Source: Mariniflexile gromovii (lineage in GTDB: Bacteria > Bacteroidota > Bacteroidia > Flavobacteriales > Flavobacteriaceae). Taken from it: a DNA stretch of 55,140 nt. The stretch is from positions 1-55,140 of the forward strand of contig NZ_JAGJCB010000023.1 of NCBI RefSeq assembly GCF_017814435.1, read 5' to 3'. Numbering within the stretch: position 1 is the stretch's first letter; each line of letters starts with the position of its first letter. Made by a program: the position numbers and the translations under genes. Below, piece by piece: positions 8,405 to 19,427 of this stretch. The notes under the pieces are model-generated. The model saw nothing but the letters and a program-made list of their open reading frames with translations. It was not told the DNA's origin and did no database searches.

Positions 8405-9067
8405 ATGACTCCTAAATTAATAGCACCTTCTCTACTAGCTGCCGATTTTGCTAACCTTCAGCGTGATATTGAAATGGTAAACCAAAGTGAAGCAGATTGG
8501 TTTCACATAGATATTATGGATGGTGTTTTTGTGCCAAACATTTCTTTTGGCATGCCCGTATTGCAAGCCATTACTAAGTACACAAAAAAAACGGTAGATG
8601 TACATTTAATGATTGTTGACCCAGACAGATACATCAAAACATTTGCAGATTTAGGTAGCGATATTTTAACGGTGCATTATGAAGCTTGTCCACATTTACA
8701 TAGAACTTTGCAAGCTATAAAAGCTGAAGGCATGAAAGCAGGAGTTTCATTAAACCCTCACACGAATGTGAGTCTTTTAGAAGATACTATTTGCGACATC
8801 GACTTGGTACTTATTATGAGTGTTAACCCAGGTTTTGGTGGCCAAAGTTTTATTGAAAACACATATGACAAAGTAAAACAGCTAAAAGAGCTTATTGCAC
8901 GTAAAGGCGCTAAAACCATTATTGAAATTGATGGCGGTGTTACTACTGCAAACGCAAAAGCACTTGCTGATGCTGGAGCCGATGTTTTAGTTGCTGGCAG
9001 TTTTGTTTTCAAAAGCGACAACCAAATTGAAACTATAAAAGAGCTAAGAGCTGTTGCAAACTCTTAG
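8405..9067 (+). CDS. rpe: Ribulose-phosphate 3-epimerase
   Basis: A 220-residue TIM-barrel enzyme that interconverts ribulose 5-phosphate and xylulose 5-phosphate in the pentose phosphate pathway. Family signatures are visible: IAPSLLAADFANL at the start, HIDIMDGVFVPNISFG (about 37-52) with the catalytic Asp and metal His, VDVHLMI, the VNPGFGGQSFI loop (about 141-151) and EIDGGV (about 178-183). Length is standard. Its stop codon overlaps the stop of the convergent CBS gene by a few bases, and no terminator separates them. Confidence 0.96.
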   Translation: MTPKLIAPSLLAADFANLQRDIEMVNQSEADWFHIDIMDGVFVPNISFGMPVLQAITKYTKKTVDVHLMIVDPDRYIKTFADLGSDILTVHYEACPHLHRTLQAIKAEGMKAGVSLNPHTNVSLLEDTICDIDLVLIMSVNPGFGGQSFIENTYDKVKQLKELIARKGAKTIIEIDGGVTTANAKALADAGADVLVAGSFVFKSDNQIETIKELRAVANS

Positions 9068-9480
9068 TATTGTTTTATGTAATAATTTAATAGATCTCTG
9101 GTGGTTACAATTCCTATTAATACTCCATTATCTACAACCGGAAGTGCATGAAACTCTCTATTGGCTAAAATAGTTGCAGCCTCTTTAATTGAAGTATTGG
9201 TATTTATAGTCACTATATTTTTGTTCATTACTTGCTCTATGGTAAAGTTATTATATACTATGGCTTTTACGTTATGTGCATCTTCGGTAGTTTCTGGAAT
9301 ACTGATTTTCAGCAGATCAGAATAACTCAACATACCAATTACAACATCTGAACTCACTACCGGAATATGTTTAATTTTATGTGTTTTAAAAAGCATTTCC
9401 GCTCTTTCCAAATCATCTCCTCTTTTTAATGCTATTATGGTTTTAACCATTATTTCAGAAATTGGTTCATTCTGTATCAT
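9064..9480 (-). CDS. CBS-domain pair protein A
   Basis: A 138-residue protein made of two CBS motifs (about residues 8-60 and 80-136). These form a Bateman module that usually binds adenine nucleotides. Typical CBS strings are HIPVV, GMLSYSDLL, FHALPVVDN and LIGIVTTRDLL. No effector domain is present, so it probably acts as a stand-alone sensor or partner protein. It lies 20 bases downstream of a clearly paralogous gene on the same strand, so they form a tandem pair and probably one transcript. Its target is unknown. The stop overlaps the convergent rpe stop. Confidence 0.85.
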   Translation of the reverse strand: MIQNEPISEIMVKTIIALKRGDDLERAEMLFKTHKIKHIPVVSSDVVIGMLSYSDLLKISIPETTEDAHNVKAIVYNNFTIEQVMNKNIVTINTNTSIKEAATILANREFHALPVVDNGVLIGIVTTRDLLNYYIKQY

Positions 9481-9500
9481 TTCTTTTAATTTTTAAATTG

Positions 9501-9926
9501 TTAAAACTGTTTTAATAAATATTTTATAAGGTCGGTGGTCGTTACAATCCCAACTAGTTTGTTGTTATCCACAACTGGTAAAGCATGAAATTCTTTGCTA
9601 GCAAATATTTCAGCAACTTCTTTTATCGAATTTGAAGGTGAAACCGATATGATATGCTTTTTCATTACTTGTTTTATAGTAAACATATTATATACCATGG
9701 CATCGGCACCAGCATCTGAATCTGAGTTATCAGTAACATCAGCGAAACTTAGTCGAAGTAAATCCGTATAGCTTAACATACCCACCACAACATTGTCATT
9801 AACAACAGGTATATGGCGTATGCGGTGTTTTTTAAAAAGTCTTTCTGCTGTTTCTAAACTATCTTTCTTTTTTAATGTAATAACAGGAACTGTCATTAAC
9901 ATTGAAATGGGAGCTTTACGTATCAT
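9501..9926 (-). CDS. CBS-domain pair protein B
   Basis: A 141-residue two-CBS protein, paralogous along its whole length to the gene immediately downstream. Shared strings include GMLSYTDLL / GMLSYSDLL and EFHALPVVDN. The two copies differ most in the linker between the CBS motifs, where this one has an extra acidic stretch (DVTDNSDSDAGAD, about 71-83). No catalytic or membrane domain is attached. The pair probably arose by tandem duplication, and a heterodimer is possible but not shown by the sequence. Confidence 0.85.
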   Translation of the reverse strand: MIRKAPISMLMTVPVITLKKKDSLETAERLFKKHRIRHIPVVNDNVVVGMLSYTDLLRLSFADVTDNSDSDAGADAMVYNMFTIKQVMKKHIISVSPSNSIKEVAEIFASKEFHALPVVDNNKLVGIVTTTDLIKYLLKQF

Positions 9927-10007: not shown

Positions 10008-10859
10008 TTAATAGCCTGCTATATTGAAATTTAGCATTTGCTTTACTTTACTATAAACATTAGGGAATTCCGTTTTAAAAGTTTGGGGTGTTTCAATAAA
10101 ATTTTCAATAACTACCGCTAAAAATTCAAACTGATTGGTAAAAGCATACTTTCTGAAATAGTTAGAAGCCATTAATCTATTTCTTAGTGGTTCACTCTCA
10201 GCAAGCATATCAGATAATTCTTTAAATGAATCACTAAAAATAGTAGAACTCACATCATGCTCTTTCATACTATTAATATGTATGGCATGGGTAAATTCGT
10301 GTATGCCTAAATTTACATTATCGGTACTATTGCTAAATCCTTTTAAAAAATCTTCCCAAGAAAGCACCAAAGTCTCAAGTCTAGGATTAAATTCTCCTTT
10401 GTGGTACGCTTGATTAGTATTGGAATAAAATGCTTTGGGGTAAACAACTATTTTAGAAATTATACCTATATAAAAATCACGAAAACCGAAGGTTAACATA
10501 ACCGCCGTAGCCGAAATTAAAATTTTTATGTCATCATTTATAATCAACCCATCTCTACCAATAAAATGTTTATCTGAAATAAAAGATGCCACACGATGGT
10601 TAAAATGTTTTTTCTCTATCGCATTAAGTTTTTTATAAAACGAGAATTGATGTTGTAAAACATCTTTTTGGTTTTGATTTAATCGCTTTAATCGAAAATA
10701 AAAATGATTGTATAAAGGTCTTCTTTGTTTTAAAACATAGCCCATTTCTACCATTTTAAAGGTATAATACAGAATAATACCCATAAGTACGGCAAGAAAA
10801 ATTCCAACCATAATTTTACTTCCCAAAGTAAAATTTTCAATAACCAGTAGGTATAGCAT
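10008..10859 (-). CDS. M90-family zinc metallopeptidase (MtfA-like)
   Basis: A 283-residue protein with an N-terminal membrane segment (about 14-34) and a peptidase M90 domain. The zinc motif HEFTH is at residues 187-191, and a downstream EFLAVVIENFIETP (about 243-256) carries the expected third ligand Glu. In E. coli the relative MtfA binds the repressor Mlc and is a glucose-responsive peptidase. The substrate here is unknown, and E. coli MtfA lacks the membrane anchor seen here. It is preceded by two hairpins and the pair of very small genes at 11.0-11.3 kb on the same strand. Confidence 0.85.
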   Translation of the reverse strand: MLYLLVIENFTLGSKIMVGIFLAVLMGIILYYTFKMVEMGYVLKQRRPLYNHFYFRLKRLNQNQKDVLQHQFSFYKKLNAIEKKHFNHRVASFISDKHFIGRDGLIINDDIKILISATAVMLTFGFRDFYIGIISKIVVYPKAFYSNTNQAYHKGEFNPRLETLVLSWEDFLKGFSNSTDNVNLGIHEFTHAIHINSMKEHDVSSTIFSDSFKELSDMLAESEPLRNRLMASNYFRKYAFTNQFEFLAVVIENFIETPQTFKTEFPNVYSKVKQMLNFNIAGY

Positions 10860-10914: not shown

Positions 10915-10957
10915 AACCTAAACATAAAATCAACTTTAATGATTTAATGTTTAGGTT
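10915..10957 (-). terminator. Hairpin terminator downstream of the small-peptide genes
   Basis: AACCTAAACAT and TGATTT...ATGTTTAGGTT form a long inverted repeat. In the minus direction it is followed by TTTTGTATTTTT. It would end the transcript of the two tiny genes before the M90 gene. Confidence 0.65.
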
Positions 10958-11011: not shown

Positions 11012-11134
11012 TTATCTATGGATTGAATAAGATGCAGCAATTGCTTGCTCCCTTAACGCTTCCATAAATAATTTAAACTTTTCTTTGAAATCTTTTAAAT
11101 TACTATTGTTTTTCTGTGTAGTTTTTTCACTCAT
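11012..11134 (-). CDS. Very small protein (40 aa), paralogue of the next small gene
   Basis: A 40-codon frame, MSEKTTQKNNSNLKDFKEKF then KLFMEALREQ and AIAASYSIHR. It aligns over its last 25 residues with the adjacent 28-codon gene, with about 16 identities. Most other differences are conservative (K/R, M/I), and shared residues are often encoded by different synonymous codons (GCA/GCC, GCA/GCT, ATC/ATT). This pattern supports translation under selection. The core looks like an amphipathic helix and no signal peptide or Cys is present. The family is not recognised. Gene order is 28-codon copy, 43-base gap, this copy, then two hairpins. Function unknown. Confidence 0.65.
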   Translation of the reverse strand: MSEKTTQKNNSNLKDFKEKFKLFMEALREQAIAASYSIHR

Positions 11135-11177
11135 AATTCTTAGGTTTTTACAGTTTAATTAATTCTCTTAAATTTTA

Positions 11178-11264
11178 TTATCTATGAATTGCATAAGAAG
11201 CAGCAATGGCATGTTCTTTTAATTCTTTGATAAATAGTCTAAATTTTTGATTAAATTCTTTCAT
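11178..11264 (-). CDS. Very small protein (28 aa), paralogue of the previous small gene
   Basis: A 28-codon frame, MKEFNQKFRLFIKELKEH then AIAASYAIHR. It corresponds to the last 25 residues of the neighbouring 40-residue protein and lacks that protein's polar N-terminal extension. Hydrophobic residues repeat at helix spacing (F, F, L, F, I, L), followed by an Ala-rich turn and a fixed IHR end. Translation is supported mainly by the protein-level conservation between the two copies. It is the first of the pair in the direction of transcription. No known family is recognised, and it could be a regulatory, membrane-associated or signalling peptide. Confidence 0.6.
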   Translation of the reverse strand: MKEFNQKFRLFIKELKEHAIAASYAIHR

Positions 11265-11578
11265 TTTTATAGCGTTTTAATTAATATTCCTTTTATCGAG
11301 GTTTTTTACAAGGATTGTCATTTTATCCATATTTTTTGCAGTACCTTACAGTTTATCGAAATTTACAATCATTTCAACATATTGATTATCAGGTACTTAA
11401 CAAACATAAAGGATTATATCTACTAATTCTAATAAAATAGATTAAGGGTTTATATTTTTGATGAATGAACCTTGCGGTAAAAAGAACGGCGCTCTCTAAA
11501 ATTTAACATTAATCTTATGAGGAGACTGTAAACTTTGATTGATTTAGGTTAACTTTTCAAAATTTCAAAAAAAAAAAA
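11265..11578. promoter_or_regulatory. Leader/upstream region of the small-peptide genes
   Basis: About 314 bases without a normal gene. In the minus direction TATGTTTG (11401-11408) fits the TAnnTTTG promoter consensus about 137 bases before the first small gene. The leader between contains two degenerate direct repeats around TTTATCGA (11292-11299 and 11352-11359), exactly 60 bases apart. Confidence 0.35.
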
Positions 11579-11708
11579 GAGGCTGTCTGAAAAGTATCAA
11601 CAAGTGTCATTCAGAATTCATTTCAGAATCTTAACTCGTTGATAATCAATATTTATTAAAACTGAAACAAGTTCAGTTTGACAATATATAGACTTTTCAG
11701 ACAGTCTC
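11579..11708. repeat. MITE-like element with 17-bp terminal inverted repeats
   Basis: A 130-bp segment is bounded by GAGGCTGTCTGAAAAGT (11579-11595) and its inverted copy ACTTTTCAGACAGTCTC (11692-11708), 16 of 17 matching. It has no coding capacity. Internal short palindromes (ACTGAAAC...GTTCAGT) are present. An A12 run precedes it. This is the layout of a non-autonomous miniature transposable element. Confidence 0.75.
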
Positions 11709-11813: not shown

Positions 11814-11887
11814 TGACCACGGAGGGATTCAAACCCCCGACCGCTGGAGCCGAAATCCAGTGCTCTATTCAGCTGAGCTACGTGGCC
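11814..11887 (-). tRNA. tRNA-Arg (anticodon TCG)
   Basis: A 74-nt cloverleaf. Acceptor GGCCACG pairs with CGTGGTC, the D-arm contains AGCTCAGCTGAATAGAGC, the anticodon stem CTGGA/TCCAG encloses TTTCGGC with anticodon TCG, and the T-arm is GGGGGTTTGAATCCCTC. The CCA end is not encoded. It reads CGN arginine codons. Confidence 0.95.
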
Positions 11888-19073: not shown

Positions 19074-19427
19074 TTACGATTTACGATTTCGCATCGTTTT
19101 TATAGATGCAACTACAATTGATAATAATTCATTTCCTTCTTTATGCAATCTCTTCATTTCCTCCTGTTCATTTACAGACACATCTAACAACAATTCTAAG
19201 AAATACATACTTTCATCCGTTTCTTCTTCTACTATTTTAAGTTTATTAATAAAATCCGCATCCGATTTCGCTCTACAAGCCGATCTATAATTTGCGCCAA
19301 CCGAACTAGAACACCTAATTAATTGATTACAATAAGCATTATATTTTCTTGAAACAGGAAACTTTGCACACAAATTCCAACAATCTGACGCAAATTTTTT
19401 AGTTCTGTTTTTTAATGCTTCTTTCAT
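19074..19427 (-). CDS. Four-helix-bundle protein (23S rRNA IVP / S23 family)
   Basis: A 117-residue all-helical protein. Typical strings are VSRKYNAYCNQLIRCSSSVG, ANYRSACRAKSDADFINKLK, VEEETDESMYFLELLLD and VASIKTMRNR. The family is named after proteins encoded within 23S rRNA intervening sequences, but in Bacteroidota it is common at scattered loci. Its role is unknown. Here it sits between ftsW and murG inside the dcw cluster, where no such gene is expected. It is flanked by inverted sequence: ACAATTTACGATTTACGATT at 19069-19088 and CACAAATCGTAATTC at 19432-19446. It looks like a mobile or inserted gene that rides on division-gene transcription. Confidence 0.88.
   Translation of the reverse strand: MKEALKNRTKKFASDCWNLCAKFPVSRKYNAYCNQLIRCSSSVGANYRSACRAKSDADFINKLKIVEEETDESMYFLELLLDVSVNEQEEMKRLHKEGNELLSIVVASIKTMRNRKS

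Follow-up and report, generated by a model that had tools for sequence, protein, structure and literature searches.

A family of small proteins with a conserved C-terminal octapeptide in Flavobacteriaceae, represented by a tandem gene pair in Mariniflexile gromovii

The gene pair and its surroundings

The window, i.e. the whole stretch of DNA that was analysed, spans 55,140 nucleotides of Mariniflexile gromovii (contig NZ_JAGJCB010000023.1). On its minus strand lie two very short genes, located between a tRNA gene (11814-11887, Rfam match at the gathering threshold) and a gene for an M90-type peptidase, which is found downstream on the same strand (10008-10859; Pfam Peptidase_M90, E 3.4e-37). 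Apart from the tRNA, no Rfam family matched at the gathering threshold at the pair. In order of transcription, the first gene (11178..11264) encodes a peptide of 28 aa (MKEFNQKFRLFIKELKEHAIAASYAIHR) and the second (11012..11134) a peptide of 40 aa, with a 12-residue N-terminal extension and the C-terminal end AIAASYSIHR. The intercistronic gap (11135..11177) is 43 nt. The initial annotation had described minus-strand ORFs of 40 and 28 codons, 43 bases apart, with 16 identities within the last 25 residues; these counts and the coordinates are correct, and the tails AIAASY(S/A)IHR are present on both ORFs. Over the last 28 residues there are 17 identities. The pair has a dS of 1.21 and a dN of 0.17; therefore, the synonymous codons of shared residues do differ, as had been claimed. 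Searching the own genome with the 40-aa peptide returned two places only, namely the pair itself (E=1.1e-7 for the second), and the family profile described below gave no further copy there. Together with the family-wide results below, this shows that the likeness exceeds chance.

Between the pair and the peptidase gene, a terminator-like hairpin is found on the minus strand (10915..10957), with 18-nt arms (10915-10932/10940-10957) that are 94% complementary, a 7-nt loop and then TTGTATTTTT. Its fold z-score of -5.4 agrees with the hairpin terminator noticed earlier past the second ORF. A simple terminator scan listed nothing at 10915..10957; its stem rules may be too strict for the mismatch in this AT-rich stem. 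The two genes probably share one transcript, as far as their layout indicates. A putative -7 promoter box, TATGTTTG, was read from the sequence at 11401..11408 (minus strand), separated from the first ATG by 136 nt. PMC6847099 and PMC9723704 give TAnnTTTG as the Bacteroidota consensus, and the former describes a preference for boxes with no internal G (TAHHTTTG). Of the upstream promoter that had been suggested, this candidate box stands, and it is also present in a relative from another genus (G075). As a family-wide feature, the consensus is not convincing: TAnnTTTG precedes 14/70 members, while the reverse strand gives 11 and shuffles give 10.6.

The putative 5' leader (11265..11400, minus strand) has, by eye, a repeated unit like TTGTAAAnnnTCGATAAA. 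Box included, 144 nt align at 77% identity with the G075 leader, the sole strong match among 24 genomes, and the genes flanking the window pair and the G075 member belong to different clusters. Either the gene and its leader moved jointly or the leader is constrained; two sequences cannot decide between these. With a fold z of -2.2, the window leader was considered as a riboswitch; by eye, G075 does not clearly preserve the pairing, and the idea was therefore dropped. About 170 nt upstream of the -7 box, a 130-bp element (11579-11708) is flanked by 17-nt terminal inverted repeats (GAGGCTGTCTGAAAAGT / ACTTTTCAGACAGTCTC, 94% complementary) and looks like a miniature inverted-repeat transposable element.

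Family distribution, conservation and predicted structure

A two-row profile, made from both window peptides only, was searched against 397 Flavobacteriaceae genomes. This gave one strong new match, in G075 (E 4.9e-10), followed by a long tail of weak matches. Most of these are probably chance, and several are short ORFs ending precisely at the end of the profile, with peptides that on inspection end in ASSYAIHR and variants thereof. Profiles were rebuilt iteratively with 22, 41 and 58 rows. The 58-row profile has 53 matches at E<=1.7e-5, in 32/397 genomes and 24/237 genera. All of them extend to position 31 or 32 of the 32-position profile, and their stop-to-stop frames are 30-68 codons long. 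Another 14 matches (E 1.2e-4 to 0.05) were excluded. Homologues with a conserved frame in relatives, a check set beforehand, are thus present, and 14 of the 32 carrier genomes have 2-5 copies. The window peptides score E 8.4e-10 (28 aa) and 1.0e-10 (40 aa), each being itself a row of the profile. Since profile rows match their own profile by construction, the independent steps are the two-row profile, the members first found by the search at the 41-row stage and the pattern scan described below.

When six genomes of the genus, the own one included, were searched with the 40-residue peptide, only weak matches in two (E 0.19 and 0.65) were obtained outside the own genome. The 58-row profile was run on two of the five other genus genomes (G003 and G005) and matched in neither. 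As read from these genomes, the distribution of the family is patchy. Outside Flavobacteriaceae, the best match in 80 genomes of another family (f7) has an E-value of 0.013. Samples of the order (246 genomes) and the phylum (296), which overlap the family sample, gave strong matches in Flavobacteriaceae only, next to one weak match in f7 (E 0.006).

Next to the profiles, a collection of prokaryote contigs was scanned for a DNA pattern encoding A-S-S-Y-A-I-H-R-stop with AGY serines. It occurs at 48 places in 42 stretches, several of which are from the same genomes as in the Flavobacteriaceae sample, while base composition predicts 0.3-0.7 places by chance. Every stretch is labelled as a Bacteroidota taxon, i.e. 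Flavobacteriaceae or its genera, Bacteroidia, Bacteroidetes or Cytophagaceae, and the genera named include Aquimarina, Gilvibacter, Aureitalea, Aureisphaera, Altibacter, Flavivirga, Pukyongia, Ulvibacter, Flavobacterium, Dokdonia and others. In all 42, the short ORF matches the 22-row profile at E<=3e-7, with the motif itself being fixed by the pattern. The exact pattern was not found in viral contigs. As far as searched, the family appears to be restricted to Flavobacteriaceae. One genome (G589; L149:5000-5987) has four members in tandem, of which three are spaced exactly 320 nt apart, each with TAGGGATTATTT shortly 5' of its start codon.

No known family had been recognised initially, and the library searches agree with this. 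Neither window peptide matched NCBIfam or Pfam up to E 10. For 22 members, NCBIfam gave no match, Pfam four single-member rows only (E>=0.05) and PHROGs two single-member rows (E>=0.02). The best rows for PDB by sequence are partial matches (E>=0.24), and one member used as a query gave no convincing match in phages and plasmids. Likewise, no report of the family was found in the main text of open-licence PMC papers. Within these libraries and open papers, the family is likely undescribed. ORFs this short are seldom called in genome annotation.

For analysis of selection, 157 detections were reduced to 90 distinct coding sequences, and these to 70 members after thinning at 85% nucleotide identity; 42 of the 70 are 32 aa long. 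Based on 24 independent pairs picked on nucleotide identity, dN/dS is 0.141 (0.102-0.190), with pS exceeding pN in 23/24. When the last nine codons, which are fixed by the search pattern, are removed, it is 0.169 (bootstrap 0.116-0.235). An earlier value of 0.098 (20 pairs) leans low because those pairs were picked on amino-acid identity, and was replaced. The family is under purifying selection on its protein sequence, in line with the second check set beforehand. Together with the profile matches, the pattern scan and the library searches, this strongly supports the earlier proposal of a previously unannotated small-protein family, and the window genes are almost certainly two paralogous members of a real, protein-coding microprotein family.

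The last eight residues, A-[SAC]-S-Y-A-I-H-R, are highly conserved and form the most conserved part of the protein, while their codons vary at third positions. Counted from the C-terminus, L -14 is found in 60 of the 70 members, A -8 in 62, S -6 in 67, Y -5 in 63, A -4 in 65, I -3 in 56, H -2 in 49 and R -1 in 53, counts that are raised by the members found through the pattern. The tail varies more among the 44 distinct members from outside the pattern loci, with S -6 (41 members), Y -5 (37), A -4 (39), I -3 (29), H -2 (20) and R -1 (25); this set leans toward a less fixed tail because sequences in both sets were often kept under the pattern loci. The codons of Ser -7 and -6 lean to AGY since the scan pattern demanded this.

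An amphipathic helix, as suggested initially, agrees with both the composition and the predicted structure of the family. The hydrophobic moment peaks once, and sharply, at 100 degrees, where its mean is 0.415 compared to 0.15-0.26 at other angles from 60 to 180. Over the 70 members, the mean net charge is +5.1 (range +1 to +11) and the mean Eisenberg hydrophobicity -0.08. The best 18-residue lipid-binding score reaches the cut-off of 1.34 in 56/70, and that of window peptide 2 is 1.21, under the cut-off. AlphaFold2, given 36 aligned members, predicts for the 40-aa window peptide a single helix over residues 10-39 that continues through the conserved tail (block-mean pLDDT 82-95 over residues 11-40; pTM 0.43). 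Because of this continuation, the conserved tail is more probably a helix face lined with small residues (A -8, S/A -7 and A -4) than a floppy tag.

Transcription units, upstream motifs and neighbourhood

Terminator-like hairpins occur within 120 nt downstream of 33 members, compared to 17 when reading the other strand, out of the 68 (of 70) with enough flank. The same count gives 48/334 for control ORFs and 0.4 on average in shuffles. Judging from these hairpins and the surrounding genes, the family members stand alone with their own transcription units. Genes downstream differ between loci, and several loci have a convergent next gene, as is the case for both copies in L034 and for the first one in L035. 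Across 60 sequences, several of them overlapping in content, no conserved gene neighbourhood beyond local synteny was found. After clustering of the neighbours, part of which were annotated, no protein cluster is common to more than 11/60, and those that are shared seem to reflect synteny between related genomes. Oxidase and peptidase neighbours, named by eye, recur, and a role linked to them was abandoned because the genomes concerned look related.

A sigma54-type motif, TGGYAYR-N4-TTG, is found upstream of 20 members, compared to 0 on the reverse strand, out of the 88 (of 90) with enough flank, and upstream of 4/432 control genes (p 3e-13); three of the four control sites are the site belonging to an adjoining family member. 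In the thinned set, 12/70 members carry it. Carriers include members in Aquimarina (L051), Aureisphaera (L076 and L090) and Aureitalea (L067), and in the genomes G210, G181, G202 and G340; the remaining 68/88 members are without the motif. The window pair carries neither this motif, with the best scores in the 300 nt upstream being at shuffle level, nor the second element described below. As given in PMC12316311, the sigma54 consensus is TGGCAC-N5-7-TTGCT, and the -12 element of the family motif is mostly TTGAA or TTGGA compared to TTGC in the consensus. A stricter form of the motif occurs at 56 places in seven whole genomes, compared to 18 for the reversed pattern, and 18 of 36 inspected places are inside long open frames; therefore, many motif places are chance. 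The rpoN gene is present in 68/68 genomes and its co-occurrence is thus uninformative.

The motif is also found upstream of lon (G000 and G369) and of an ompH/skp gene (G181, a site flagged as inside an open frame), and tandem exported proteins are among the genes downstream of it. According to PMC9723704, the sigma54 motif of F. psychrophilum precedes groESL, lon, dnaK, grpE-dnaJ, htpG, clpB, skp, gliding and exported-protein genes, and Table 2A of that paper lists sigma54 promoters for lon and ompH/skp. In several genera, including the own genome (G000:C1:358099-361954; loci L193-L197), 2-3 sigma54-type sites about 0.2-3 kb apart precede exported proteins of similar make (MKK..FIFVE.GVEFSVFPDGQFDF), near a gene that by eye is uvrA-like.

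A second element, like GAAATTTCKTACATTT, lies roughly 90-190 nt upstream of about 16 members. The pattern GAAWTTTCKTACATTT occurs at 8 places in 42 genomes, of which 5 are 91-189 nt upstream of a member and 3 are not. The genomes G202 and G369 each have a paralogue with the sigma54-type motif next to one with GAAATTTCTTACATTT. In G160, the sigma54-type motif precedes one copy, and GAAATTTCGTACATTT together with a weaker sigma54-type match precedes the other. Paralogues within one genome can thus carry different upstream elements, which could put one activity under different signals.

Three family copies are found near conjugative-transfer genes (L063:4287-6236, L070:7075-7998 and L040:8720-10786). 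The peptide genes of Flavivirga aquatica (L063) and Aquimarina spongiae (L070) precede, by about 60 nt, genes that belong to one cluster. In the former, the downstream gene encodes a TraG/VirD4-like coupling protein with a YWFCY domain and is followed by a TraM gene; in the latter, only the YWFCY domain is seen, as the stretch ends 308 codons into the gene. In G147 (L040), a DnaJ-domain protein comes next and a coupling protein of the same cluster follows about 3 kb on. Some copies are probably carried on conjugative transposons or integrative elements, to judge from these neighbours, which would help explain the patchy distribution.

Possible roles of the family

The reading that we tentatively favour is that of a trans-acting amphipathic-helix microprotein, which would dock through its C-terminal helix on one conserved partner and be stress-induced in some lineages. 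The peptide would act in trans inside the cell, held on the membrane surface or on a partner helix by its amphipathic helix, while the AxxxA/SY face of the C-terminal helix, with its small residues, would dock on that conserved partner. In lineages with the -24/-12 motif, its expression would rise together with that of the flavobacterial sigma54 regulon, which covers chaperones, Lon, Skp, envelope stress and gliding. Because of this induction, it would most likely serve protein quality control or the envelope stress response as an adaptor or modulator. However, the window pair lacks a sigma54-type site, like 68/88 members, the -12 element departs from TTGC with many motif places being chance, and there is no conserved neighbour. 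A patchy presence is expected of an accessory function more than of a core stress function, and the three copies near conjugative-transfer genes fit a mobile or defence-type role equally well.

A wider version of this reading is rather doubtful. Here, paralogous helices of about 32 residues with a shared docking octapeptide, expressed from different promoters (a sigma54/chaperone-stress type and a GAAATTTCKTACATTT type), would let several stress signals converge on one partner, and some copies, acquired by conjugative transposons, may interfere with the version of the host.

Two known systems can be compared to the docking reading. Like the F. psychrophilum sigma54 regulon (motif SM4, PMC9723704), the family has a -24/-12 type motif before 20/88 members, in genomes where lon and ompH/skp also have it. 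Unlike that regulon, the window pair and most members are without the motif, and no family member is in the selection of promoters presented in PMC9723704. The second comparison concerns proteins from another group of bacteria. In enterobacteria, stress-induced small proteins tune proteases or membrane complexes. These resemble the family in being tiny, stand-alone, lineage-restricted and stress-regulated (here by prediction), with no enzymatic domain. The family differs in that its C-terminal octapeptide is more fixed than any other part and in that paralogue sets occur. If the partner is a protease or chaperone, the family would be a lineage-specific regulator of protein quality control. It is a protein family found in 24 genera and absent from every library searched, which combines selection on protein, predicted transcription units of its own and a stress promoter motif in a subset. 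As such, it may offer a compact starting point, open to direct tests, for work on the sigma54 stress regulon of Flavobacteriaceae.

Instead of docking on a partner, the peptide may be a cationic amphipathic helix that acts alone on the inner membrane face (shape, stress sensing or scaffold), the C-terminal motif being a self-association surface. The positive charge, the strong 100-degree periodicity and the lipid-binding score of most members agree with this, but it is the last eight residues and not the amphipathic stretch that are most conserved, so membrane binding alone is no explanation. Window peptide 2 also scores under the cut-off. We regard this reading as unlikely.

A secreted peptide, i.e. 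a pheromone or a phenol-soluble-modulin-like or leaderless-bacteriocin-like product with tandem copies cooperating outside the cell, has a smaller chance still. Small cationic amphipathic helices absent from the family libraries searched, in tandem both in the window (two) and in G589 (four), are what it would predict. Staphylococcal phenol-soluble modulins are short cationic amphipathic helices as well, often in tandem and overlooked in annotation. The family shares the short amphipathic helix and, in part of the genomes, the tandem genes, but it has a conserved C-terminal motif, belongs to another phylum and has no constant exporter gene nearby. No N-terminal signal sequence was seen (inspection by eye). 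Neither a constant neighbour, as for an RRNPP/Phr-type pheromone, nor adjacent immunity or transport genes of the leaderless-bacteriocin type were found in the 60 sequences with clustered and partly annotated neighbours. The C-termini of pheromones and bacteriocins usually diversify, whereas this one is much alike across 24 genera. A signalling peptide, as had been suggested, is not specifically supported; an intracellular regulator or adaptor would fit better.

More improbable again is a toxin of a type I toxin-antitoxin system, or of another mobile addiction or defence module, partly spread by conjugative transposons. Type I toxins (Ldr/Ibs/AapA type) are encoded by tandem intergenic tiny ORFs and are patchy by lineage, as is the family, whose genes moreover have terminators of their own and in three cases lie close to TraG/TraM-type transfer genes. 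Against this, the low mean hydrophobicity and the net charge of +1 to +11 are unlike those of membrane-spanning toxins, with no membrane-spanning character by composition, and the family is under purifying selection. Sigma54-type control would also be unusual for type I toxins.

A leader peptide of a transcription attenuator is nearly refuted: a hairpin with a U-rich tail does lie no more than about 100 nt past the short ORF, and in the window the M90 peptidase gene follows on the same strand, but the peptides have no single-amino-acid run, the next gene is convergent in several loci and no fixed downstream operon was found across species. A conserved RNA or DNA element that is open in one frame by accident, which the nucleotide-level conservation of the window leader with G075 might suggest, is effectively refuted by the codon pattern (dN/dS 0.14-0.17, third-position variation in the motif), besides the Rfam result.

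Elsewhere in the window, two adjoining minus-strand genes (9064-9926) encode what by eye we take to be paralogous two-CBS-domain-like proteins of 138 and 141 aa. A 117-aa ORF (19074-19427) within a murG-ftsW cell-division cluster presumably encodes a four-helix-bundle protein of the 23S rRNA insertion type, which it resembles by eye.
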